DNA of 22,635 bases, from positions 1 through 22,635 of the IMG/VR virus record IMGVR_UViG_3300006810_000434; one strand, 5' to 3'. This document shows, piece by piece, positions 2,134 to 12,667 of the stretch; position 1 is the first letter of the stretch, and the number at the start of each line of letters is the position of its first letter. The DNA is from a virus. The notes under the pieces were generated by a model. It did not search any database, was not told the origin of the DNA, and was given only the letters and a program-made list of their open reading frames with translations. Made by a program: the position numbers and the translations under genes.

Positions 2134-4176
2134 ATGCAAAACGAGATTTTGGGAAAAGTGGCTTTTGCTGCACAATATGCAAGACCCACAGAATCAGGAC
2201 GTGAATCTTGGTTGGATGCTGTTGAACGTGTTTGCAACATGCATTGTGAAAAGTATCCATCCATCCATGAAGAAATAAAAGACGCATTTGAATTGGTCAA
2301 AGAACAACGCATTGTTCCAAGTCAAAGGTCGATGCAGTTTGCAGGTGATGCAATTAAGAAACACAATATGCGCATGTACAATTGCACATATTCACCAGTT
2401 GATCGAAAAGAGTTTTTTAGTGAAATGCTTTGGTTGCTATTGTGTGGATGTGGAACAGGTTTTTCAGTTCGATCAAAGGACATTGTTAAACTTCCACGGG
2501 TAATCAATGCAGATCAACATTCAAAGCGTGATTCAATGATCCATATTGTTGCAGATTCCATTGAAGGTTGGTGTGCAGCTGTTCAAGCTCTACTTGATTC
2601 ATATTTCTTCACTGATTATTTTGATCATTCCATTGATTATGAAATCTATTATGACTTTTCAAAGGTTCGTCCAAAAGGTTCACTTATTGCATCAGGTGGA
2701 ATTGCACCGGGTTATAAACCACTTGAAGTTTGTTTGAATCAAATACGAGATATTTTAAACACTCGACTTGGAAAGAAATTAAGATCAATTGATGTGTTTG
2801 ATATTTGCATGTCCTTGTCTGCTTGTGTTTTAGCCGGTGGTGTAAGACGTTCAGCTTCAATCTGTTTGTTTGATAAAGAAGATCCATTGATGCTGAAAGC
2901 CAAGACAGGTGAATGGTATAAAACACATCCAAATAGAGCATACGCAAATATCAGTGCAACAATCGTGACTGATGGTTCTGAAGATGTGCGTGATGTGAAA
3001 AAGGTGGTTAATCTAAATTCACAGTTTGGTGAACCCGGTGTTTTCTTTTCAGAGTGTGAAGACTTTGGAACAAATCCATGTTGTGAAATTGGATTATATC
3101 CATTTTGGATTCAATCACCATCAGGTCAAAGTGTTGAATACGTTTCTTTGGAAATGGCTAAAGATCGAACACGACTTGAACAGATTGGATGGATGTGGAG
3201 AACGGGTTGGAGTGTTTGCAATTTAACTGAAGTAAACATGCAAAAGAATCCAACGGTGGAAATGTTTTGGCAAGCATGCAAAGCAGCTGCATTCATTGGA
3301 ACATTACAAGCCGGATACACAAACACCGGTTTTCTTGGACCGGTAACAAAACACATCATTGAAAATGAAGCATTGATTGGTGTTTCTTTGACAGGTATGT
3401 ATGCAAACTTTGATGTTTCATTTAGTGCCAAGGTGCTTGAACACGGTGCAAAGATTGTTGTGGATGAAAACAAACGAGTTGCTGAACTGATTGGAATCAA
3501 TCACGCTTCACGCACAACCTGCATCAAGCCAAGTGGAAACACATCAACCGTACTTGGAACATGTGCAGGTATCCATGCATTTCATGCTGAACGCTACATT
3601 AGAACAATGCGAATCAATAAAACCAATCCTGTTTGGAAAGAGATTAAAGAAAAGATTCCTGAAGTCACTATTGATTTAGATGGTGAAACTGGAATCATTG
3701 AATTTGCATGTGAAGCATCCAACGGTGGGTGGACTCGAAAAGAAGTGAATGCAAAAGATCACTTGGACCGGGTTGCATTTGTCCAAAAACATTGGGTTTA
3801 CCCCGGTTCAAAGCAAAGCAGGGTTGCAGGATTATCACACAACGTTTCAAACACTTGCACTGTGAAAGACCATGAATGGAACATGGTTGGTGATTGGCTT
3901 TGGAAGAATAGACACAATGTGCGTGGTGTTGCTATGCTTTCAGACTATGGTGATTTTGTTTACCAGAATGCACCGTACCAAACGGTTTTGGATGGATCGA
4001 CCACTGAAGCCCGGTGGAGAATCTTGAATGATGTTGATTGGTCGAAAGTTGATTTAACATCCATCCACGGAGGAAATGATGCACAATACACAAGCGGATG
4101 TGATGGACTAAAGTGTGAAATTAAAGCTGTGGAAGTTCAGCAATCATTTGGTGATAAACTTTCCAGTTCCACATAA
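2134..4176 (+). CDS. nrdJ: Adenosylcobalamin-dependent (class II) ribonucleoside-triphosphate reductase
   Basis: A 680-residue reductase that would make deoxynucleotides from ribonucleotides for phage replication, using a B12-derived radical and so independent of oxygen. Visible motifs in order: VPSQRSMQFAG (61-71); YNC with C84, matching the redox cysteine of the N-terminal strand; CGCGTGFSV (104-112); VRPKGS (178-183); GGVRRSA (235-241); the active-site loop NPCCEIGLYP (314-323), where C316 is the expected thiyl-radical cysteine with N314 and E318; VCNLTEVN (361-368) with C362 as second redox cysteine; and a C-terminal pair C656-x4-C661, as used for re-reduction by thioredoxin-like partners. 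The length fits monomeric RTPR-type enzymes (about 700 residues). The residue after the radical cysteine is Cys rather than the common Gly/Val/Ala. The 3' end overlaps the convergent recT gene by 56 bp. Confidence 0.93.
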   Translation: MQNEILGKVAFAAQYARPTESGRESWLDAVERVCNMHCEKYPSIHEEIKDAFELVKEQRIVPSQRSMQFAGDAIKKHNMRMYNCTYSPVDRKEFFSEMLWLLLCGCGTGFSVRSKDIVKLPRVINADQHSKRDSMIHIVADSIEGWCAAVQALLDSYFFTDYFDHSIDYEIYYDFSKVRPKGSLIASGGIAPGYKPLEVCLNQIRDILNTRLGKKLRSIDVFDICMSLSACVLAGGVRRSASICLFDKEDPLMLKAKTGEWYKTHPNRAYANISATIVTDGSEDVRDVKKVVNLNSQFGEPGVFFSECEDFGTNPCCEIGLYPFWIQSPSGQSVEYVSLEMAKDRTRLEQIGWMWRTGWSVCNLTEVNMQKNPTVEMFWQACKAAAFIGTLQAGYTNTGFLGPVTKHIIENEALIGVSLTGMYANFDVSFSAKVLEHGAKIVVDENKRVAELIGINHASRTTCIKPSGNTSTVLGTCAGIHAFHAERYIRTMRINKTNPVWKEIKEKIPEVTIDLDGETGIIEFACEASNGGWTRKEVNAKDHLDRVAFVQKHWVYPGSKQSRVAGLSHNVSNTCTVKDHEWNMVGDWLWKNRHNVRGVAMLSDYGDFVYQNAPYQTVLDGSTTEARWRILNDVDWSKVDLTSIHGGNDAQYTSGCDGLKCEIKAVEVQQSFGDKLSSST

Positions 4177-5332
4177 ATTTGTGATCTGAAATAATGCGTG
4201 AATATTGTGATTGTGTTTCTTCGTTAATCAGATCTTTAGCCAATAGTTTTTGAAGATGTCTGTGGATTTCAGACCAAATTGGACTATGTGAAGAGTTCAA
4301 CACCCAATTCACATAATTGTATAGATCACCATCACGTTTTTGATTGAATGATGTTCCATAGAACGCATCCAATGCAATTGCAACAGCATTCACATCAACA
4401 TTTGCTTTTTTGAGTCCTTCACAATTTAGACTTGCAAGCCGCCCGTCTTTTAAAAACGTGCGAATTGGTGAGAATGCAACCGGGTAAAAAGTTCTTTTGA
4501 AATCATCGAAGTTGCATTGATTGAGTGGTTTATCATGGTAATGTTCCAACGCTTGCACTGCATCATCCACATTGATGTTTTCTTCTTTTAGTGCTTCAAT
4601 CACATTTTGGATTGTGTTTATGTTTCTAGCACCAATATCTTGTGTTGCAACCGGTTGCCATTTGTTTTCTAGTGTTTCAGTTTTTTTTTTAGCAGGTTGT
4701 TCAGTCAATTGGTTTTGAATATCGTATGGAATTTGTTCACCAGTGGACGCATACATGATTGCATCAGCTTCAGGTCCATCCAACATCATTTCAGCAAGTT
4801 CATCAGGACTGCACGCTGTTCCAATCACATCAGGAAACACAGCACGACACAAAGCAGTCAATGCACGTTTTTGACACATCACCAAAGGCATTTGTTGCCA
4901 AATTCGTTTTTTATGCGCGCCACGTTGATGTGCGTCTTGCATTGTATAAGACCATGTATGCACTGGAACTTCCAAACCAAAGTCTTTTGAAATTTGCAGT
5001 TCATCAAGACGAATTGCTTTGTATACAACACCAACTGTGTGTGGAAGTGGATTATTGTTTGAATCATATTGCTTTGGTATGAACTCGCATTTCATCATTG
5101 CACATACACGTTTCTTTGTTTTTGGATCAATCCATTTCCGGACGATGCCACCCATTGCATCAGCATTTAGTGCAGGTTTACCGAGCATACAGTATGTTTG
5201 TGAAAGACAAGAGTTCACATCAAAGTTGAACAGATGACCAAAGGCTTGAAAGCATGCAATGTTGTCATCATAGTTTTGTTGTGAGTTTGAAAGTTGTTTG
5301 ATGTAGTTAAGTTTTTCTTGTGAAATTTGCAT
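4121..5332 (-). CDS. recT: RecT-family single-strand annealing protein
   Basis: A 403-residue protein. Residues about 1-190 carry RecT/Bet-like family features: a conserved YKAIRLDE strand region (104-111), then K-x-x-W145-x-x-M-P149 leading to a helix with R156 and R163 and the sequence AVFPDVIG (164-171), matching the W..MP..M...RA....R..PDV pattern of phage annealing proteins. It would coat and anneal complementary single strands during recombination or replication repair. The C-terminal half (about 220-403) is not recognised and is longer than in typical RecT (about 270-300 residues). The ribosome site AAGGAC lies 6-7 nt upstream on the minus strand. Directly before it sit four tandem copies of an 8-bp repeat also found before the nuclease candidate at 9299. 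It is the last gene of the minus-strand operon; its end runs into nrdJ with no terminator between. Confidence 0.85.
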   Translation of the reverse strand: MQISQEKLNYIKQLSNSQQNYDDNIACFQAFGHLFNFDVNSCLSQTYCMLGKPALNADAMGGIVRKWIDPKTKKRVCAMMKCEFIPKQYDSNNNPLPHTVGVVYKAIRLDELQISKDFGLEVPVHTWSYTMQDAHQRGAHKKRIWQQMPLVMCQKRALTALCRAVFPDVIGTACSPDELAEMMLDGPEADAIMYASTGEQIPYDIQNQLTEQPAKKKTETLENKWQPVATQDIGARNINTIQNVIEALKEENINVDDAVQALEHYHDKPLNQCNFDDFKRTFYPVAFSPIRTFLKDGRLASLNCEGLKKANVDVNAVAIALDAFYGTSFNQKRDGDLYNYVNWVLNSSHSPIWSEIHRHLQKLLAKDLINEETQSQYSRIISDHKFMWNWKVYHQMIAELPQL

Positions 5333-5350
5333 AATAAAGTCCTTATTATT

Positions 5351-5382
5351 GAGTAGTTAAGTAGTTAAGTAGTTAAGTAGTT
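5351..5382 (-). repeat. Four tandem 8-bp repeats in the recT leader
   Basis: Read on the minus strand, the unit AACTACT[T/C] occurs four times head to tail (three AACTACTT, then AACTACTC), then AATAATAAGGA containing the recT ribosome site. On the plus strand the units are GAGTAGTT at 5351-5358 and AAGTAGTT at 5359, 5367 and 5375. The array fills almost all of the space between the stop of the small gene upstream and the recT leader. Three copies of the same unit precede the gene at 9299. A binding site or a slippage-prone expression switch are both possible. Confidence 0.85.
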
Positions 5383-5383
5383 T

Positions 5384-5623
5384 TTAGTGTTGAAATAAAT
5401 CTTTGTAAGCTGATTCAATACAAGAGATGATCATATATCTGTTTTGATCAGAACAAAGATAGAAATATGCGTTATCATTTAGTTCATAAAGCTCATTGGT
5501 TGATAGATTGATTCTAAAAGGTGGATCAACAAAGTAATCCATCAGGTTGTCAAGATGGTTTAAAAGTCGTTTACCGTTGTATGCTTTCAAAGTACTTATT
5601 TTCAGTTTGCGTGGTTTTCTCAT
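5384..5623 (-). CDS. Small conserved-context hypothetical protein
   Basis: A 79-residue protein with no recognised family. The N-terminus is basic (MRKPRKLK...), and the rest is mixed with several Tyr and Asn residues and no membrane segment. A clear ribosome site (AAGGA on the minus strand) precedes the ATG. The gene starts 12 bp after the stop of the XRE-type regulator and ends just before the repeat array in the recT leader, so it is the middle gene of the minus-strand operon. In such early operons this place is often taken by regulators or recombination accessories, but nothing in the sequence decides this. Confidence 0.65.
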   Translation of the reverse strand: MRKPRKLKISTLKAYNGKRLLNHLDNLMDYFVDPPFRINLSTNELYELNDNAYFYLCSDQNRYMIISCIESAYKDLFQH

Positions 5624-5635
5624 AGTTGATTTTCC

Positions 5636-5869
5636 TTAATGGTTTGTGTCATTGGCAAGTTCGAGTAAATAAGGCACTTGATAATCTTCACCAGTTAGTT
5701 CAGACAATGCCTTGCAACATGCAACAAGGAATGAAAGTTGCATTGGTCGTTTTTCATTTAGAACTGCACTGATGTAATTGTAAGAATATCCGGACTTGTC
5801 AGATAGATCTTGCAAAGTCAGACTATGCATTTTGAGTGCAGCTTTGATTTGTGCTTTTAACAATCGCAT
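5636..5869 (-). CDS. XRE/Cro-type helix-turn-helix DNA-binding protein
   Basis: A 77-residue protein whose first about 60 residues follow the XRE/Cro HTH pattern: a helix (LKAQIKAALKMHSLT), the turn-linked pair LQDLSDKSGYSYNYISAVLNE (about 18-38) with the scaffold helix and recognition helix, then a closing helix (FLVACCKALSEL). AAGGAG lies about 6 nt before the ATG on the minus strand. It is the first gene of the minus-strand operon and faces the replication operon across a divergent control region, the classic Cro/CI-like arrangement. It may therefore repress one or both promoters there, the direct repeats at 5944-5981 being candidate operators. It is too short to carry a CI-type cleavable domain. 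Confidence 0.8.
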   Translation of the reverse strand: MRLLKAQIKAALKMHSLTLQDLSDKSGYSYNYISAVLNEKRPMQLSFLVACCKALSELTGEDYQVPYLLELANDTNH

Positions 5870-5902
5870 TTAAATCTCCTTGTGTTGCGTTGTATGGTTA
5901 TA

Positions 5903-5931
5903 CATTTACGTGATTGTTTTTCACTTGTCAA
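5903..5931 (-). promoter_or_regulatory. Predicted sigma70-like promoter of the minus-strand (XRE-recT) operon
   Basis: On the minus strand a perfect -35 box TTGACA (plus positions 5926-5931) is followed after 17 nt by TAAATG (5903-5908), a moderate -10 box. It would start transcripts roughly 25 nt upstream of the XRE-type gene. The -35 is convincing and the -10 is weak, so either regulated or modest activity is likely. Confidence 0.5.
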
Positions 5932-5943
5932 CAAAAAAGATAA

Positions 5944-5981
5944 AAAAAGAAAGAAAAGCGTTGAAAAAGAAAGAAAAGCGT
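5944..5981 (+). repeat. Two 18-bp direct repeats, 20 bp apart, overlapping the replication promoter
   Basis: The sequence AAAAAGAAAGAAAAGCGT is present exactly twice, at 5944-5961 and 5964-5981, so equivalent bases are 20 bp (about two helical turns) apart. The second copy covers the -35 to -10 spacer of the predicted replication promoter. Placement and phasing fit a pair of operator sites for one regulator bound on the same DNA face, most simply the XRE-type protein encoded next door. That assignment is inference. Confidence 0.7.
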
Positions 5982-5989
5982 AATATAAA
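5961..5989 (+). promoter_or_regulatory. Predicted promoter of the replication operon
   Basis: TTGAAA (5961-5966), a 17-nt spacer and TATAAA (5984-5989) match a sigma70-type promoter closely. The start point would fall near 5996, giving a leader of about 25 nt before the ATG at 6022, which has AAGGAG 5 nt upstream. The direct repeats at 5944-5981 overlap it, suggesting repression. Confidence 0.6.
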
Positions 5990-6021
5990 ATATTCATGTT
6001 CATTTCACAAAAGGAGTCATT

Positions 6022-6570
6022 ATGAAAGAACATGAATTGCGTTTATATATCTTAAAATCAGATCTAACATCAACCGAGAAACTTGTTTTGCTTGGAATAT
6101 GTTTGCGTTTGGATTGGTCGACATGGAAAGGTCAAATCAGTGCAAAACAGATTTCCGGATTGGTCAACATCACATTAAGAACATCCAAACGAACTATAAA
6201 AGCATTGATTGATAAGAAAGTCATAAAGCGTTCATCAACTCGAATTGGTGAACATATGAACACAGCTGCTTTCACAGAAATCAATTTAAGCTATTTTACC
6301 AAAAAAGACACTAGTGTCATCTATGACACTAGTGCTATGAATGACACTAGTGTCAATAATGGTGATTACATAACCAAAAATGACACTACCCCCGTGTCAT
6401 CTATGGTCAATGATAGTGTCATTAATGACACCCGTAACAATAGTAACAATATAAATACAACCTTTAATCAATTAGAAAAACCAAGATTCACAATTCATGA
6501 AGATGGTTTTAGGTGGGGTGTTGGTACACAATACCCTGATTTTGATCCAAACAGAGACTATAAGCATTAA
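6022..6570 (+). CDS. Winged-helix-like replication initiator candidate carrying its own repeat cluster
   Basis: A 182-residue protein. Residues about 1-90 look like a winged-helix domain of the phage replication-protein type: a helical start (LRLYILKSDLTSTEKLVLL), then ISAKQISGLVNITLRTSKRTIKALIDKKVIKR (39-70) as helix-turn-helix and wing. The middle (about 95-145) is a low-complexity Asp/Thr/Ser/Asn/Val linker encoded by repeated TGACAC/GTGTCA palindromes. The C-terminus (about 150-182) is a short conserved-looking tail, perhaps contacting the helicase loader encoded next. This is the lambda O layout: DNA-binding N-terminus, repeats within the gene, partner-binding C-terminus. It is followed 11 nt later by a DnaC-like gene. 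The initiator function is inferred from layout rather than from a family match. Confidence 0.75.
   Translation: MKEHELRLYILKSDLTSTEKLVLLGICLRLDWSTWKGQISAKQISGLVNITLRTSKRTIKALIDKKVIKRSSTRIGEHMNTAAFTEINLSYFTKKDTSVIYDTSAMNDTSVNNGDYITKNDTTPVSSMVNDSVINDTRNNSNNINTTFNQLEKPRFTIHEDGFRWGVGTQYPDFDPNRDYKH
6307..6431 (+). repeat. Cluster of TGACAC/GTGTCA palindromes: candidate replication origin
   Basis: Five inverted-repeat sites lie inside the initiator gene. GACACTAGTGTC is at 6307-6318; TGACACTAGTG (one arm incomplete) at 6324-6334; TGACACTAGTGTCA at 6342-6355; TGACAC and GTGTCA separated by 7 nt at 6381-6399; and GTGTCATTAATGACAC at 6416-6431. The first three share exact 18-bp spacing. An AT-rich stretch (about 6436-6480) follows. 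Iteron-like sites inside an initiator gene next to a helicase-loader gene are the hallmark of lambda-type origins, so this is the best origin candidate in the window. Confidence 0.75.
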
Positions 6571-6581
6571 GGGGTGTAAAT

Positions 6582-7451
6582 ATGAAATCGTTTACTGAAT
6601 TGGAAGGTTTTCAAGATTGGATCGAATCTTTAAAGCAGAATGTTCAACCAACTAATATAAAACAACCCACTTTGACACATCATTGGCATTTAGAAGAAAA
6701 GGGGTTGTTAGAACGTGAAGTTGTGAAAGGGATTCCACAAATCAAAGTCAACCTGATGAAGTCGTGCAATTGGGAAGGCTGCATTGAATCACATTCAGGT
6801 ATTCACACCAGAATCAAAGTCAAAGATATAGATGGACTTCCACATTCTTTTGGTGTTCCATGTGAATACTGTGGATTAACTAACAAGTATTTAATGCGAT
6901 TCAAAGCAAGTGGATTAACAGCTGATGCAATTGGAAAGCATGTTGGAAACTATGATTTTGATCCAATCTTAGAAAAGAAAACCAAATCATTTGTTTTTGG
7001 TGAAATCCGGGGTGGATTGTTGTATGGAAACACAGGAAATGGAAAGACACATTTATTGTGTGGAGTTGCAAGGGAACTGATTTGGACAGGAAAAAAAGTT
7101 AGATATGTTTCACACCAATCATTGCTTGAACAAATTAAACAATCTTTTGATAAGAACAGTGATGTGGATGATCCACGCTATTCATGGCTTGATGGTGTTG
7201 ATGCTGTTGTATTCGATGAATTGGGTTTCTTCAGAATAAATGAATGGAGTAAACAAACAACCAATGAATTGATTCATGCAATCTATTCAGCAAACATTCA
7301 AGTTCTATTTGCATCAAATATGCAACCAAGGGAAATGATGCACAAGTTTCTTGATATGCGTTCAGTTTCCAGAATTGGTGAAATGTGTACTGATTTCAGA
7401 TATGAAATGAAAGGTGTTGATAGACGTGGAAGTGGTGATTTCTGGAAATAA
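6582..7451 (+). CDS. DnaC/IstB-like AAA+ ATPase, probable helicase loader
   Basis: A 289-residue protein with a clear AAA+ core: Walker A GNTGNGKT (149-156), Walker B VVFDE (209-213), sensor 1 FASN (243-246, N246) and an arginine-finger-like RSVSRIGE (260-267), the pattern of DnaC-type loaders. Before the ATPase lies a cysteine quartet C62-x4-C67 and C94-x2-C97, probably a small zinc-binding module; N-terminal zinc or helicase-contact modules are known in some DnaI/DnaC proteins. It would load the host or phage replicative helicase at the origin through the initiator encoded upstream. A strong ribosome site (GGGGTG) precedes the ATG, 11 nt after the initiator stop. A hairpin terminator lies directly after the stop codon. 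Confidence 0.87.
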   Translation: MKSFTELEGFQDWIESLKQNVQPTNIKQPTLTHHWHLEEKGLLEREVVKGIPQIKVNLMKSCNWEGCIESHSGIHTRIKVKDIDGLPHSFGVPCEYCGLTNKYLMRFKASGLTADAIGKHVGNYDFDPILEKKTKSFVFGEIRGGLLYGNTGNGKTHLLCGVARELIWTGKKVRYVSHQSLLEQIKQSFDKNSDVDDPRYSWLDGVDAVVFDELGFFRINEWSKQTTNELIHAIYSANIQVLFASNMQPREMMHKFLDMRSVSRIGEMCTDFRYEMKGVDRRGSGDFWK

Positions 7452-7490
7452 AAAAAGGCTAGCTTTTTGAAAACTAACCTTCTTTATATG
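7452..7490 (+). terminator. Hairpin terminator A (bidirectional), after the helicase-loader gene
   Basis: Stem AAGGCTAG (7455-7462) pairs with CTAACCTT (7474-7481) with one C/A mismatch. It is preceded by an A-run and followed by TTCTTTATATG and a run of seven T (7491-7497). The A-run makes it an intrinsic terminator on the minus strand too. About 50 bp around it are nearly identical to the hairpin at 7650-7678. Confidence 0.7.
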
Positions 7491-7497
7491 TTTTTTT

Positions 7498-7640
7498 CAA
7501 TCGGTCTTAATATCTGTTTTATTGAAATGAATTGAGCCGCGGATCAATAAAACCAAAACAAAACCGTGCAGCTTGATAAAAACAGTTTTAGCAATAAAGA
7601 CAGTTTATCAATAAACATAATTTAGTCAACTAAATTTCTA
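7498..7640. other. Non-coding block with three inverted repeats between duplicated terminators
   Basis: No coding region is seen. Three palindromic elements occur. GTTTTATTGA (7516-7525) pairs perfectly with TCAATAAAAC (7544-7553) across 18 nt, and this loop plus arm contains the near-palindrome TTGAGCCGCGGATCAA (7532-7547), GC-rich in an AT-rich setting. TTGATAAA (7573-7580) pairs with TTTATCAA (7604-7611). AATTTAGT-CA-ACTAAATT lies at 7619-7636. These could be protein-binding or recombination sites or a structured RNA; no promoter was found that would decide. Confidence 0.6.
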
Positions 7641-7641
7641 T

Positions 7642-7690
7642 AAATAAAAAAAGGTTAGCTTGTCGAGAACTAACCTTTCTTTATGTGTTT
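7642..7690 (-). terminator. Hairpin terminator B (bidirectional), after the minus-strand membrane-protein gene
   Basis: A perfect 9-bp stem AAAGGTTAG (7650-7658)/CTAACCTTT (7670-7678) with an 11-nt loop. On the minus strand it is followed by seven T, an excellent intrinsic terminator for the gene at 7761-8039. In the plus direction the T-run is poorer. From the A-run onward it is a near copy of terminator A at an offset of 196 bp. Confidence 0.75.
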
Positions 7691-7760
7691 TCTTCAAGAG
7701 ACTAGAGAAACACAATCTATGAACCATATCAATCATAAAGATATTTATATTTTATTCAAG

Positions 7761-8039
7761 TCAATTCGTTTTTGTTTGTTGTGCTTGGTGCTGTTGTAAA
7801 ACTTCCACTTTTGCAAGTCTTTCCCTAAATGCATTGATTTCCGTCCAAATATCAACACGTCCTTCACGGCATGATGTATGTTGCATTTCCAAGTTCTTTT
7901 GCAATGTATCAATTGCCAATTGAAGTCTTTCTATTTGTTCAACAGTCTTTCCAAGTGTTCGAGCTGCATAAAAGATCAATGAACCAACGGATGCAAGCAA
8001 ACCAACAATGTGCCAAAATGAATTGAAATCAATAGTCAT
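7761..8039 (-). CDS. Small membrane protein with coiled-coil tail
   Basis: A 92-residue protein with one hydrophobic segment near the N-terminus (about residues 8-27) and then a heptad-like helical region (about 32-85) rich in Glu, Gln, Leu and Lys. One cysteine (C57) lies in HTSCREG. The ribosome site AAAGGG lies 6-7 nt upstream on the minus strand. It stands alone, between terminator B and a divergent promoter pair, so it is a single-gene unit. The layout resembles many short phage membrane proteins (holin-associated, superinfection exclusion or spanin-like); the sequence does not choose between them. I saw nothing coding between its stop and terminator B. Confidence 0.7.
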   Translation of the reverse strand: MTIDFNSFWHIVGLLASVGSLIFYAARTLGKTVEQIERLQLAIDTLQKNLEMQHTSCREGRVDIWTEINAFRERLAKVEVLQQHQAQQTKTN

Positions 8040-8070
8040 AATAAACCCTTTCTTTTTTTAACCTTTTTTT

Positions 8071-8098
8071 ATTATCTCATCTTTTACGGTTGACTCAA
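8071..8098 (-). promoter_or_regulatory. Predicted promoter of the small membrane-protein gene
   Basis: On the minus strand TTGAGT (plus 8093-8098) is followed after 16 nt by GATAAT (8071-8076). The -35 box shares the 9-bp palindrome TTGACTCAA (8090-8098) with the promoter of the divergent gene, so the two polymerase sites overlap back to back. Confidence 0.5.
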
Positions 8099-8117
8099 TA
8101 AGAAATCAATGTACTAT
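8090..8117 (+). promoter_or_regulatory. Predicted promoter of the RHH-SSB-terminase operon
   Basis: TTGACT (8090-8095), a 16-nt spacer and TACTAT (8112-8117) form a plausible sigma70-like promoter upstream of the RHH gene at 8159. It overlaps the divergent minus-strand promoter and abuts a 16-bp palindrome at 8116-8131. Confidence 0.5.
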
Positions 8118-8131
8118 GTATATATATACAT
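8116..8131. promoter_or_regulatory. 16-bp perfect palindrome, candidate operator
   Basis: ATGTATATATATACAT is a perfect palindrome starting at the end of the -10 box and reaching to about the transcription start of the plus-strand promoter. This is the usual place for an autoregulatory operator. The first gene downstream encodes a ribbon-helix-helix protein, a family that binds such sites as dimers or tetramers. Binding is inference. Confidence 0.5.
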
Positions 8132-8158
8132 ATATGTATGGAAAGAAGGTTTAATTAA

Positions 8159-8314
8159 ATGTCTAACAAACTTGTACATTTAAATCTAAATATCACTATG
8201 ATTCAAGCATTGGATAAGATTGCAAAACGTGAAAACAAACCACGTTCTTATGTCATCCGTGAAATGCTTGAATCCGGCATTGAACAAAGAAAGAAGAAAA
8301 GCAATGCTAAATAA
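8159..8314 (+). CDS. Ribbon-helix-helix (Arc/CopG-like) DNA-binding protein
   Basis: A 51-residue protein. It matches the ribbon-helix-helix plan: an N-terminal strand with alternating residues KLVHLNLNIT (4-13), helix A IQALDKIAKREN (15-26), a turn, and helix B RSYVIREMLESGIEQRKKK (29-47), with the family-typical Arg-Ser at the start of helix B. AAGG lies about 9 nt before the ATG. It heads the operon containing ssb and the small terminase gene, and its end overlaps the ssb start by 11 nt. It probably regulates its own promoter through the palindrome at 8116-8131. The fold assignment is fairly firm; the target is not shown. Confidence 0.82.
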   Translation: MSNKLVHLNLNITMIQALDKIAKRENKPRSYVIREMLESGIEQRKKKSNAK

Positions 8315-8612
8315 AACCATGTTCCTTGGCAACCTTGGAAAAGATCCTGAAGAATACAAAACCGAATCAACTACAATTGCAAAGTTTTCAGTTGGTGTGA
8401 ATGAAAAGCTAAAAGGCGAAATCAAAACACAATGGTTCAATTGCATATCCTTTGGAAAACAAGCTGAATTTGTTTTGCGAAATTGCAAGAAGGGAACAGC
8501 TGTATATGTGGAAGGTGCAATGCGTTCTGAAACGTACAATGAAAAATTAAGATGGACTTTATACACAACACAAATTCTTCCATATTCAAACAAGGTGCAA
8601 AATGAAAACTAA
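8304..8612 (+). CDS. ssb: Single-stranded DNA-binding protein (short form)
   Basis: A 102-residue OB-fold SSB. The start MLNKTMFLGNLGKDPE (1-16) matches the universal opening of bacterial-type SSBs, and WFNCISFGKQAEFV (43-56), the KKGTAVYVEGAM segment (63-74) and a following WTLYTTQILPYS strand complete the OB fold. I chose the ATG at 8304 because it gives exactly this family start; it overlaps the RHH gene by 11 nt and has only a weak purine-rich ribosome site, suggesting coupled translation. The protein stops right after the OB fold and lacks the acidic tail ending in a conserved Phe that recruits partners in cellular SSBs, so protein recruitment may be reduced or differ. It would protect single strands during replication and RecT-mediated annealing. 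Confidence 0.92.
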   Translation: MLNKTMFLGNLGKDPEEYKTESTTIAKFSVGVNEKLKGEIKTQWFNCISFGKQAEFVLRNCKKGTAVYVEGAMRSETYNEKLRWTLYTTQILPYSNKVQNEN

Positions 8613-8781
8613 TGGAAAAGCAACCAAGATTCATGAAATTGAATTAGTTTTGCGTATAGCAGTGGAAATCCTGCGATCATCTCCAGAAGTCTTTCATGAT
8701 TTGGAAAGATTATTAAATGCACATATCGACCGGGTGGAAGATCCAACAATTGAAATTCAAATTGGAAAGGCTATCAAATGA
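8602..8781 (+). CDS. Small hypothetical protein (59 aa)
   Basis: A 59-residue protein not recognised as any family. It is mostly helical in appearance (IHEIELVLRIAVEILRSS, then VFHDLERLLNAHID) with an acidic middle. It is supported by a good ribosome site (AAGGTG, 5 nt before the ATG), an 11-nt overlap with the end of ssb, and a 4-nt ATGA overlap with the small terminase gene, so it closes an otherwise unexplained gap in a tightly coupled operon. The function is unknown. Confidence 0.72.
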   Translation: MKTNGKATKIHEIELVLRIAVEILRSSPEVFHDLERLLNAHIDRVEDPTIEIQIGKAIK

Positions 8782-9263
8782 GCGGTAAAGATTTAGAAGG
8801 ATTAGCAGCGCGTGAAGTATTCATTGATAGTATGAATAAAAGTGATAAGAGCATTTCACACACGCAAGGAAAATATAAATACACAGAAATACGCGCACAT
8901 AATATCTGTAATAATATTAGTCAAGGTATGCCCTTGCGTGTTGCAGCTGTTGCAGAAGGAATCAGTGAAGCAAGCTTGCACCGATGGAGAAAAGAAATCC
9001 CTGAATTTGCTGAAATGGTTGAACAAGCCATTGCAGTCAGTGAAGCAAAATTGATTCAAAAGCTTTCCACCAATGAAGATTGGCGTGCAGCTGCATGGAT
9101 ACTTGAACGCAGGTTTCCAGAACATTGGACTAAGAAAGAACACATTGACATGAATGTTTCAAGATCAGAAGGATTGGATGAAATCAAGATGATGATTGAA
9201 CAGACTGACCATTTGCTTGGTGTTGATCGAACTATTGAAGAAGAAGATCAAGATCAAGATTAA
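8778..9263 (+). CDS. terS: Terminase small subunit (HTH type)
   Basis: A 161-residue protein. A helix-turn-helix occurs at about residues 50-72 (GMPLRVAAVAEGISEASLHRW), followed by EIPEFAEMVEQAIAVSEAKL and the segment DWRAAAWILERRFPEHWTKK (101-120), a pattern typical of phage small terminase or terminase-associated HTH proteins. The C-terminus is acidic. It would recognise the packaging site on phage DNA and hand it to the large subunit. The ATG overlaps the previous stop (ATGA), with AAAGG 7 nt upstream. Unusually, two other genes separate it from the large subunit. Confidence 0.82.
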   Translation: MSGKDLEGLAAREVFIDSMNKSDKSISHTQGKYKYTEIRAHNICNNISQGMPLRVAAVAEGISEASLHRWRKEIPEFAEMVEQAIAVSEAKLIQKLSTNEDWRAAAWILERRFPEHWTKKEHIDMNVSRSEGLDEIKMMIEQTDHLLGVDRTIEEEDQDQD

Positions 9264-9286
9264 ACTACTTAACTACTCAACTACTC
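9263..9286 (+). repeat. Three tandem 8-bp repeats in the leader of the nuclease candidate
   Basis: The unit AACTACT[T/C] is repeated three times: AACTACTT (9263-9270), AACTACTC (9271-9278) and AACTACTC (9279-9286), running directly into the ribosome site AAGG before the ATG at 9299. It is the same unit, with the same orientation relative to the downstream gene, as the four-copy array before recT. Confidence 0.88.
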
Positions 9287-9298
9287 AAGGATGAAACA

Positions 9299-10072
9299 AT
9301 GCCTGAAAGATACTACACAGACAAATTCGGACAAACCGTTGATAATTGCAAAACACAACTTGGACAAGCTTTTGAAAGCTATGCTTCCACATCATTCAAA
9401 TCAAGTATGATGAACAACTTCACATTCTTACGTTCACACTTTAACAACGAAAAGATTTATTGTGATTTTCAGCACGGTGGAAAACAAATATGTGATGTTG
9501 TTTACAGAACCAACTTTGATGTGGATCGACAAAAGCCACTGACAAAATATGGACATCCACATGAATATGATCGAATGTACATTGAATTTAAATGTGCGTA
9601 TGTTAGAGAATATCAAACAGTTGATGAACAATTTGAAGCATTCTTTAATAACAAGTTTTCAAAGATCACAGTTCCAAAGGCACGTCTATTCATTGAACGT
9701 GCATTTCATTCAAAAGCAGTTGTTCCACATGTCTTGATCATGGGATTTTATAATGATGATCCTGAATGCATTCTGGAACACTTAAGTTTTAAACACTTCC
9801 ACATGATCAGAGTTTTACTATACAAACCAACCAAGTTTGATAATGAAACACAACTATCCAAAGCACACTTTGCAATTGTCGATTATGAAAACTTTGATGA
9901 TTATCATAAAGATATTATTCATTGCACAAGTCCACTTCAATATGCTGATTTGATGATTTCAAAATCTAATCCACAGCATACTGCACACAAATTCCATGCA
10001 TTCAATCTTCCACAAGAATGCGAGTGTTCCAAGTATCGTGATTATTATAAATGGGGGAATGTAAGAAAATGA
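9299..10072 (+). CDS. Putative PD-(D/E)XK-type nuclease
   Basis: A 257-residue protein without a confident family match. The N-terminal half shows the spacing of a PD-(D/E)XK nuclease core: a helix with LGQAFESY (21-28, E26), a strand ICDVVYR (64-70) with D66, then after a loop the strand YIEFKCAY (94-101) giving E96-x-K98. Conserved-looking aromatic and basic residues follow, and two Cys occur near the end (CECSK). Such nucleases include recombination exonucleases, restriction enzymes and Holliday resolvases. It lies between the small terminase gene and a sigma-like gene, but shares its repeat-bearing leader with recT, which suggests a nuclease-annealing partnership like lambda Exo-Bet. Both the nuclease assignment and the partnership are inferences. 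Confidence 0.6.
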   Translation: MPERYYTDKFGQTVDNCKTQLGQAFESYASTSFKSSMMNNFTFLRSHFNNEKIYCDFQHGGKQICDVVYRTNFDVDRQKPLTKYGHPHEYDRMYIEFKCAYVREYQTVDEQFEAFFNNKFSKITVPKARLFIERAFHSKAVVPHVLIMGFYNDDPECILEHLSFKHFHMIRVLLYKPTKFDNETQLSKAHFAIVDYENFDDYHKDIIHCTSPLQYADLMISKSNPQHTAHKFHAFNLPQECECSKYRDYYKWGNVRK

Positions 10073-10599
10073 GCTGTTTCTGTGAACAATGTATGGAAGT
10101 CCGGTCAATGTTGGATGAAGTCTTGGAAACAAGATATAATCTTTTGATGAAGATTGCATATGAAACAAGACCTGAAAGACATGAAGACTTGTTGCATGAT
10201 GCTATTGTGAAGCTATTAGCAAAACACCGTGGTTTGGTCTTTCCACATGCTAATCATTTAACCAAGTATCTTGAAAGGTCTATGTACCGTTTATCATACA
10301 ACATTGGACGAACTGCACACAGATATATCAAATATCAGCAAGACGTTCATGAAAGCCAAACGTACTATGATGGTGAAATTGGTGAAGTGGAAACCCGGCT
10401 TTGTCTTGATCAGCTTGTTGATTTACTTCCAAATCCAATCCACAAGCAAGTTCTTTCATATAAAAGAAAAGGATACATATTCAAAGAAATCCATCAAAAA
10501 ACAAAGGTAAGTCAGAACACTTTAATGGGTAGATTCTTTCAAGCAAAAAACTATTTAAATGAAACACTTGGAGATGAAACAAATGCTTTCATTGAATGA
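10069..10599 (+). CDS. ECF sigma-factor-like protein, candidate late-gene regulator
   Basis: A 176-residue protein with both sigma domains. Region 2-like: a helix YNLLMKIAYE, then HEDLLHDAIVKLLAKHRG (about 39-56) and LTKYLERSMYRLSYNIGR, the D-L-x-x-D-[AT]-x-x-K-L pattern of ECF sigmas. Region 4-like: LLPNPIHKQVLSYKRKGYIFKEIHQKTKVSQNTLMGRFFQAKNYL, matching the LP...R.V......G...KEI....VS.NT...R...A helix-turn-helix. The N-terminus has C3-x-C5-x2-C8. I chose the ATG at 10069 (ATGA overlap with the previous stop) over 10051, which lacks a ribosome site. Sigma-like late activators such as the ArpU/RinA group are known next to phage terminase genes, so a late-transcription role fits; it could alternatively act in packaging. 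Confidence 0.72.
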   Translation: MSCFCEQCMEVRSMLDEVLETRYNLLMKIAYETRPERHEDLLHDAIVKLLAKHRGLVFPHANHLTKYLERSMYRLSYNIGRTAHRYIKYQQDVHESQTYYDGEIGEVETRLCLDQLVDLLPNPIHKQVLSYKRKGYIFKEIHQKTKVSQNTLMGRFFQAKNYLNETLGDETNAFIE

Positions 10600-11947
10600 A
10601 TTGCAGCAAAACATTGTTGCACGAATCAGAAGACAAGATAAAGTGATTAGCGCGCGGTGTGGATGGGGTAGTGGAAAGACAAGTGGATTGGTGTTTGCTT
10701 TATGGTTCATCAGTCGAATCCGTCCCGGTACTTCCAGTTTACTGATTACAGATACTTCACCAAGATATAGAAGTGTGCTTGGTCCTGAGTTGGAAAAATG
10801 GCTTGGTCCAATTGGGTGGACGTTCAACGCACTTGAATCCAAATGGACTGATTCAATTACAGGTTCATCCATTTGGTGCAGGTCATACTTTAGACCGGGC
10901 ACGCGTGAAGCAACCCACAATCCATTGGAAGGTTTGAATATCACAAGCGGTGTTGCATTGATCGATGAATGCCAAACATTCAAGGATGATGAAGTTGCAC
11001 AAAAAGCATTGGGACGTTTACGCAGTGGTCCAAGTCCAATCTTGATCCTTGTTGGATTGCCTGTTGCTGATGCTTGGTGGTGTTCACTTGCTGAAAAAGC
11101 CGGATATGATCCACTGCTGTTCACTTCGTATGTAAATCAAGACAACTTGTCTGATGAATGGTTTGAAGCAACCAAACTTCTTCCTGAAGAAGAAAGACAA
11201 GCAATGGTGATGAACAAGCCAAGGCCACCAAGCGGTTTGATTTATAATGAATGGACTGAAAGCCATGTGATTGACGATTTTAAATATGATCCATCCATGA
11301 CTGGAAGAATAGCAATAGATTGGGGATTTAGAAAACCAAGTGTATTGATTATGGTCTATGATGAAGAGCGTGAAGCAACAATCATTGTTCATGAAATCAA
11401 TCCACAGGAAGTGACCATTTCAGAACTTGCACAAATGATCTTGCGTGTTGCATATCCACGTTCCATGAAGGACCAAGCACCCGGTCCAAGGATTTGGTTG
11501 GATTCAGGTGTTGCAGATAAAGCAGGAGCTGCACGCAATGATCAAACAGGAAGAAGTGCATTTAGAGAAATGAAAAAACATCCTGATCAAGGTGGAATTG
11601 GATTACCATTGCGATTCACAACAGATCCAATCTTGACCAATGTGCTAAACGGAATCCAAAAAGTGAAGCGTGCTTTTTCAAGACGAAAGTATTTATGCAC
11701 CCGTGAAGTTTGGATGCGTGGTGAACGTGCAATTGGTAATTCATTCAGGAAGGCTATTCTTTCATATGGATGGACTGCAACAAAAGACGAACCAAAGAAA
11801 GATGGACGTGAAGACCCACTTGATGCACTTCGATATGATTGTATCATCCATCATTGGTCTGATTTGAATGTTCCAAGCTACACACCACGCAAATCCAATT
11901 CAGATAATTCTTTAAAACGTAGACACAAAAGATTCAGAAGTTTTTAA
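10583..11947 (+). CDS. terL: Terminase large subunit (packaging ATPase-nuclease)
   Basis: A 454-residue packaging motor. Walker A GWGSGKT (27-33), Walker B GVALIDECQ (123-131, D128/E129) and coupling-motif-like VGLP (157-160) form the ATPase. The nuclease domain begins with AIDWGFRKPS (244-253, D246), then WLDSG (305-309, D307) and the C-terminal REDPLDALRYD (409-419), the expected acidic triad of an RNase H-type headful nuclease. I chose the ATG at 10583 because GGAG lies 9 nt upstream; in-frame ATGs at 10559 and 10574 lack a proper site. It overlaps the sigma-like gene by 17 nt. It pumps DNA into the prohead through the portal and cuts it. Confidence 0.92.
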   Translation: MLSLNELQQNIVARIRRQDKVISARCGWGSGKTSGLVFALWFISRIRPGTSSLLITDTSPRYRSVLGPELEKWLGPIGWTFNALESKWTDSITGSSIWCRSYFRPGTREATHNPLEGLNITSGVALIDECQTFKDDEVAQKALGRLRSGPSPILILVGLPVADAWWCSLAEKAGYDPLLFTSYVNQDNLSDEWFEATKLLPEEERQAMVMNKPRPPSGLIYNEWTESHVIDDFKYDPSMTGRIAIDWGFRKPSVLIMVYDEEREATIIVHEINPQEVTISELAQMILRVAYPRSMKDQAPGPRIWLDSGVADKAGAARNDQTGRSAFREMKKHPDQGGIGLPLRFTTDPILTNVLNGIQKVKRAFSRRKYLCTREVWMRGERAIGNSFRKAILSYGWTATKDEPKKDGREDPLDALRYDCIIHHWSDLNVPSYTPRKSNSDNSLKRRHKRFRSF

Positions 11948-11956
11948 GGTAATACT

Positions 11957-12667
11957 ATGAACCATTTATATTTTATTCAGGATCAACAATCATTGGAAAT
12001 CAAGATTGGAAGAACTAAAGATTTAAATAGAAGATTAAGAGAAATTCGAACTGGAACAAACAGGAAATACAAATTGCTACATGGTTTTAAAAACTATGGA
12101 TATGTTGAAAAAGAATTGCATCAACATTTGGCAGCTTTCCATGTTCAATATGAATGGTTCAAAGAAACTTGCTTACCATATGCATACAACTATTTAAATC
12201 TTCATGGCATTAGTCACAGCATGATTGAATCCAGCGTGACAGCTGTTTGTGATTTCAAAAGATGGAATCCAACGGAAAAACCTGAATTGTTTGAAATCAT
12301 CAAATTATTTTTGATCTTGTCTGTTTCATTTGGAAAAGAATGGACTTTAAACGAAATCGAACGTGTTTTTAAATTATCAAATATTGATTCAATTGATCTT
12401 GTGTTGCAAATCCAAAAGAAAGATCAAGTGCAACCTGTGATCTTTTGGATTGCTGAATTGATCAAAGAAGATGAATTGAAGAATGATTTTATTTGCGTGC
12501 AAGATATATATGAAAAACCTTTGTTTGATTTAACATCCATTCTTTCTATATCCAAACCACTTCCAATCAACAGTGCAATCCAACGTTCATTGCACGAACT
12601 GCAATATCAAATTTGCTTATTGATAGATGATTTGATCAACCCATCAGGACAAGTCAGTTTATTTTAA
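11957..12667 (+). CDS. T5orf172/GIY-YIG-like protein
   Basis: A 236-residue protein. Residues 3-70 match the T5orf172 (MUG113-like) branch of the GIY-YIG fold: a strand LYFIQD in place of GIY, IKIGRTKDLNRRLREI (15-30) giving the K-I-G-R-T...R core with R19 and R25, and EKELHQHLAAF...YEWF (51-68) with E51 and H55. The remaining 165 residues are helical and unrecognised. GIY-YIG proteins in phages include homing endonucleases and other DNA-cleaving or repair nucleases. It sits as an extra gene between the large terminase and portal genes, with AAGG about 8 nt before the ATG and its own long-loop terminator after it, as expected for an inserted gene. Confidence 0.75.
   Translation: MNHLYFIQDQQSLEIKIGRTKDLNRRLREIRTGTNRKYKLLHGFKNYGYVEKELHQHLAAFHVQYEWFKETCLPYAYNYLNLHGISHSMIESSVTAVCDFKRWNPTEKPELFEIIKLFLILSVSFGKEWTLNEIERVFKLSNIDSIDLVLQIQKKDQVQPVIFWIAELIKEDELKNDFICVQDIYEKPLFDLTSILSISKPLPINSAIQRSLHELQYQICLLIDDLINPSGQVSLF

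Follow-up and report, generated by a model that had tools for sequence, protein, structure and literature searches.

Gene map of the phage record and its two octamer arrays

The DNA analysed here (the window, 22,635 bases) is a complete IMG/VR entry and covers part of a tailed-phage genome, that of an uncultured and probably marine phage. Its gene content, based on the list of open reading frames and on Pfam and PHROG matches, includes genes for the small and large terminase subunits (terS and terL), RecT, SSB and a B12-type ribonucleotide reductase-like protein. No nucleotide match to the record was found among known phages, and the sole cellular record matched by a related terminase, a 15-kb contig of a Rhodospirillaceae MAG, is a weak pointer to the host. 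The genes and features considered below are as follows.

4121-5332, minus strand: recT, RecT-family single-stranded DNA-annealing protein, 403 aa (Pfam RecT, 2.3e-6; PHROG RecT-like, 2.5e-7)
5340-5344, minus strand: Shine-Dalgarno sequence of recT, AAGGA, 7 nt before the ATG
5351-5382, minus strand: tandem array of three AACTACTT and one AACTACTC, within the 51-nt gap ahead of recT
5384-5623, minus strand: ORF79 (79 aa, no function assigned), the gene upstream of recT, with homologues in contigs L012 and L021
5636-5869, minus strand: hth, HTH_3 (Cro/CI-like) regulator (Pfam HTH_3, 5.7e-6)
5944-5981: direct repeat of 20 bp (AAAAAGAAAGAAAAGCGT..) where hth and repO diverge, a possible operator for the HTH regulator
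6307-6361: palindromic repeats GACACTAGTGTC, spaced by about 18 bp, within the repO-like replication gene
8778-9263, plus strand: terS, terminase small subunit (PHROG 4102, 1.7e-20)
9263-9286, plus strand: tandem array of one AACTACTT and two AACTACTC, overlapping the terS stop codon
9287-9291, plus strand: Shine-Dalgarno sequence of ORF 9299, AAGGA, 7 nt before the ATG and directly abutted by the array
9299-10072, plus strand: the slot gene (nuclease-like, "nuc"), 257 aa, between terS and terL, a probable diverged PD-(D/E)XK nuclease
10559-11947, plus strand: terL, terminase large subunit (PHROG 2, 4.3e-15)
11957-12667: T5orf172 / GIY-YIG-type protein, just 3' of terL

The recT reading frame matched the RecT profile PF03837 with 27.7 bits against a curated cut-off of 24, and the leftward group reads hth first, followed by ORF79 and recT. 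The palindromic repeats within the repO-like gene look like origin iterons located in an initiator gene, as in lambda O.

An earlier note on this DNA had placed four copies of AACTACT[T/C] before recT and three before ORF 9299, and a sequence scan confirmed these positions exactly. All copies are perfect, with the last base of the successive units being T, T, T and C on the recT side and T, C and C on the nuc side. When both strands of the 22,635 bases were searched no further AACTACTY was found, which bears out the claim that the arrays are specific to the two leaders. The seven copies compare with a mean of 0.73 and a maximum of 3 in 100 dinucleotide shuffles. The recT array starts 1 nt past the ORF79 stop codon (5384-5386) and ends 6 nt short of the Shine-Dalgarno sequence, the nuc array overlaps the terS stop codon at 9261-9263, and both Shine-Dalgarno sequences share the layout AAGGA, 7 nt, ATG. 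Given that each array follows a stop codon and precedes the AAGGA of the next gene, the arrays are probably parts of internal leaders of multigene mRNAs.

The probability that two octamer units agree by chance, up to rotation, was estimated by simulation at leader composition (p about 5e-4). Independent chance acquisition of the same unit at both sites is thus unlikely, and the common unit needs either a shared origin or a shared constraint. A sister contig (L006), 99.94% identical over 4,908 bases, also has three copies before nuc, which indicated that the nuc array is no assembly error; this support covers the nuc array, the recT array being seen in the source record only. In the literature covered, mostly without subscription papers, no account of the exact repeat was found.

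Folding gave no stable structure for either leader, with a minimum free energy (MFE) of 0 kcal/mol for the 54-nt recT leader and of -1.0 kcal/mol for the 38-nt nuc leader, and no conserved RNA structure was seen in the leaders. The openness of the arrays does not exceed that of their own dinucleotide shuffles and therefore comes from composition alone, the repeat adding nothing measurable. The stop-codon cassette was dropped as a candidate since the recT array has stop codons in all three frames and the nuc leader does not, so that such a cassette fails to account for both arrays.

The earlier note had left open whether control would act at the RNA or the DNA level. In the array region 19 promoter-like sites were found and 27 were expected by chance; a promoter inside the arrays was dropped on this ground, and the arrays appear to belong to the RNA leader. 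A DNA-level element, whether as operator repeats for the HTH regulator, as a promoter, or as inverted copies flipping the 3.9-kb segment, possibly by annealing, is very unlikely. The two arrays are indeed inverted relative to each other and an HTH_3 regulator is encoded nearby, but the divergent hth/repO region is without the octamer and has its own 20-bp repeat, a period of 8 bp leaves one face of the helix, promoter-like sites are no more frequent than chance, and the relatives and L006 have the same order of genes around terS and terL.

Across all of IMG/VR, three tandem copies of the octamer were found in only four other contigs, L006 among them. An unrelated phage contig (L009) has 14 perfect copies (4714-4825, reverse-strand count) between the genes for the HigB toxin and the HigA antitoxin, ahead of the higA ribosome site, and in another contig (L008) a ribosome site is preceded by the octamer in inverted orientation. 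The octamer thus also arises elsewhere in spacers ahead of ribosome sites, and its neighbours in these two contigs are genes without any tie to recombination. A match to phage D6 was confined to the coding part of higA, and HigBA-associated arrays were not found in plasmids. A scan for two copies followed by GGA returned, besides the sister contig, one locus only, seemingly inside coding sequence. The reading as a host-wide repeat was dropped after 385 genomes from the taxonomic class to which the Rhodospirillaceae MAG belongs gave no three-copy array, although that MAG is weak evidence for the host.

The slot gene and its relation to RecT

The earlier note had described the product of ORF 9299-10072 as PD-(D/E)XK-like, and this is plausible. 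In an alignment with 8 homologues that are about 21-26% identical to the protein of the source record, E26, D66 and E96-x-K98 are invariant. An AlphaFold model (pLDDT 72.8) gave matches of intermediate quality, among which restriction-endonuclease-like folds are frequent, with Z scores of 4.5-5.8 to EcoRV, Hjc, SfiI and SPARDA chains, which is below the level clear of chance, and the best Foldseek E value (5.5e-3) was to an unrelated chain. Given that no structural match is clear of background, a restriction-endonuclease-like fold is probable rather than shown. No Pfam or PHROG family was matched, a search of solved structures by sequence gave nothing significant, and no protein match was found in known phages. 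Alignment and model together suggest that the protein is probably a diverged PD-(D/E)XK protein.

The gene occupies a fixed slot between terS and terL (8778-11947 and homologous regions), in which most relatives with both terminase genes resolved have a protein of about 240-350 aa. These slot proteins are fast-diverging and look unrelated in sequence between lineages. Several of the others show D...E-x-K-like patterns by eye, and since five of them gave no match to Pfam, their PD-(D/E)XK label is based on these by-eye patterns. The conserved slot ties the gene to the packaging genes rather than to RecT.

As in lambda Exo-Bet and RecE-RecT, a RecT-family protein and a probable PD-(D/E)XK protein occur in one phage. 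Unlike in those systems the genes are not adjacent, recT running leftward at 4121 and the nuclease-like gene rightward at 9299 in the terminase operon, and no YqaJ / lambda-Exo type protein (PF09588) was matched in any of 19 records, the source record and 18 related ones, of which some are fragments. The proposal that the two proteins form a nuclease-annealing pair split across the genome does not hold up as an argument from the leaders, given that the slot gene sits between terS and terL and that leader sharing joins other gene pairs too (see below). A partnership of RecT and the slot protein is conceivable; the leader does not argue for the pairing.

recT leaders in related phages

The relatives comprised the best 80 of 150 terminase-related IMG/VR stretches, to which the results of capsid, RecT and slot-gene searches were added. 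The octamer was found in none of the 64 other distinct recT leaders (65 including that of the source record) and in none of six leaders of diverged slot-gene homologues. A conserved regulon motif was dropped as an explanation on these counts. The earlier note had proposed common control of recT and nuc, and had named absence of the unit from relatives with the same genes as an outcome that would speak against it; this absence is what was found.

A trans-acting factor could read the octamer in both mRNAs and coordinate RecT with the nuclease-like protein; an antisense RNA or an RNA-binding protein of phage or host origin would be examples. Such a factor would fit an octamer that lies just upstream of the Shine-Dalgarno sequence of exactly two genes, with no other copy in the record and a low chance of agreement. 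We consider it unlikely, however, given that the same genes in relatives lack the octamer, that no complementary copy was found elsewhere on either strand of the record, that the shared leaders of other lineages differ in sequence and join other gene pairs, and that ORF 9299-10072 sits in the slot among the packaging genes. A version in which the octamer is recognised by a factor made in infected cells, so that RecT and the slot nuclease are timed together, with leader codes private to each lineage and with array length as the tuning device, is a shade more doubtful still.

The recT leaders of the relatives have traits in common that do not depend on the octamer. Among nine gene leaders compared they are the most open and the poorest in G (median MFE -5.2 kcal/mol, 68% unpaired, 7.4% G). 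The corresponding values were -9.4 kcal/mol, 56% and 14.8% for repO leaders, -8.8 kcal/mol, 50% and 13.4% for hth leaders, and -8.2 kcal/mol, 59% and 18% for dnaC leaders. Given that hth is on the same strand as recT in the source record and is less G-poor, a simple strand skew is argued against. The slot-gene leaders of the relatives (median -7.3 kcal/mol, n = 7) are not clearly more open than others.

Short tandem arrays (p<0.01 against shuffles) were present in 9 of 62 recT leaders, a count that ignores shared ancestry and involves about seven independent recT arrays or lineages. At the same threshold the numbers were 0/56 for repO, 0/21 for hth, 1/50 for dnaC and 0/36 for portal leaders. 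The repeat units in recT leaders vary by lineage, with ACAT, AAAC and a 7-mer in L159 as examples, and the members of two close pairs differ by exactly one unit (L158 and L159 by 7 nt, L066 and L064 by 4 nt). Slippage, which the earlier note had invoked as a possible means of tuning expression, is therefore seen directly in recT leaders of relatives and need not be assumed. The differences in copy number concern these other units; the octamer array before nuc has three copies in the source record and three in L006, the one sister contig compared.

Under neutral slippage, G-poor spacers would drift, their short repeats would gain and lose units with no consequence, and recombination would have duplicated one array. 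Because the repeat adds no openness beyond composition, a neutral origin stays a serious rival, and it agrees with the lineage-private units and with their differing copy numbers in close relatives. We nevertheless regard it as possible rather than probable, since the G-poverty and openness of recT leaders recur in very diverged relatives, which points to a constraint on the leader and not on the repeat, and since arrays are rare in other leaders: 286 same-strand intergenic leaders included 5 with arrays, of which two are those of the source record itself and two come from a closely related pair.

Shared leaders and a possible ribosome-loading spacer

Leaders are shared between unrelated genes in several relatives. 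In L127 a 34-nt leader is identical before two unrelated genes (2325 and 3325), with near-identical sequence further upstream, and in L190 about 50 nt of leader is identical or near-identical before unrelated genes. In L012 the sequence TCATGCAAAGGAGAACAC stands before both dnaC and the slot gene, and in L190 CAACTCAAACA.GCAGG stands before both recT and the slot gene. Over all contigs, 2.8% of leader pairs within contigs shared at least 11 nt, versus 1.7% between contigs; this excess is small, and leader sharing is thus occasional and not a rule. The duplicated leaders give a plain route, the copying of a leader, by which the source record could have come to share the octamer. Pairs such as dnaC and the slot gene are also joined in this way, so a shared leader is no sign that two genes work together.

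The explanation towards which we lean, with modest confidence, is that the arrays are open ribosome-loading spacers grown by slippage, and that they are the same at both sites through one copied leader. Each array would act as spacer in a ribosome-binding leader lying inside the mRNA, between co-transcribed genes (ORF79 and recT; terS and the nuclease-like gene). An array without G that folds poorly would keep the RNA just ahead of the Shine-Dalgarno sequence single-stranded and accessible, so that ribosomes could load on the second gene of each pair whether or not the first is being translated. Selection would act on openness and composition rather than on the octamer, and replication slippage would create and resize the repeat. 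One leader copied to the other site would place the octamer before both genes, as seemingly happened with other leaders in the family. Co-transcription, ribosome loading, a benefit for translation and copying as the cause of the sharing are steps that we infer. The comparison of leader sequences suggests a lineage-private, slippage-built form of an open spacer, rather than a conserved code that would tie the regulation of recT to that of the slot gene.

Standby sites are the nearest known parallel, in that the single-stranded surface upstream of the Shine-Dalgarno sequence can alter initiation rates more than 100-fold (PMC3936740). The likeness lies in a single-stranded stretch of low structure directly upstream of the Shine-Dalgarno sequence, the surface area of which is expected to set the initiation rate. 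Here, in contrast, the stretch is a perfect tandem octamer, is intergenic and is probably internal to a multigene mRNA, and a standby role is putative. The T7 gene 10 leader likewise has a short A/U-rich element upstream of the Shine-Dalgarno sequence of a phage gene; the likeness is one of sequence, and the T7 element is single copy whereas the arrays are tandem. We take the T7 element to be UUAACUUUA, in which case UUAACU would be common to it and the octamer repeat, a lead only. The A/U-rich 9-nt enhancer stimulates translation and has been proposed to bind ribosomal protein S1, and in the alphaproteobacterium tested it had little effect and was dispensable (PMC8748333). Given that the sole cellular match is to a Rhodospirillaceae MAG, this counts against the ribosome-loading reading. 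Phase-variable short sequence repeats, which change by slipped-strand mispairing, are also short, perfect, copy-number-prone tandem units near gene starts. The present arrays differ from them in having only 3-4 copies, in showing no variation between the source record and one sister contig, and in lying in a spacer close to the Shine-Dalgarno sequence rather than in a coding frame or promoter spacer.

If ribosome loading is the right reading, tandem slippage gives a phage the means to create an open spacer and adjust its length, and the spacer can be carried from gene to gene; different lineages would then arrive at one physical property with unrelated sequences. That recT leaders are open throughout the family is a testable statement on the expression of annealing proteins in these phages. 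The case also illustrates that a shared repeat in a single genome does not establish a regulon.

Tandem arrays of the TATACATA type occur in several relatives upstream of a small ribbon-helix-helix-like gene (8100-8158; L010, L012 and L025), which shows that recT is not the only gene preceded by arrays. These arrays could be the gene's own operator, since direct repeats are often bound by ribbon-helix-helix proteins.
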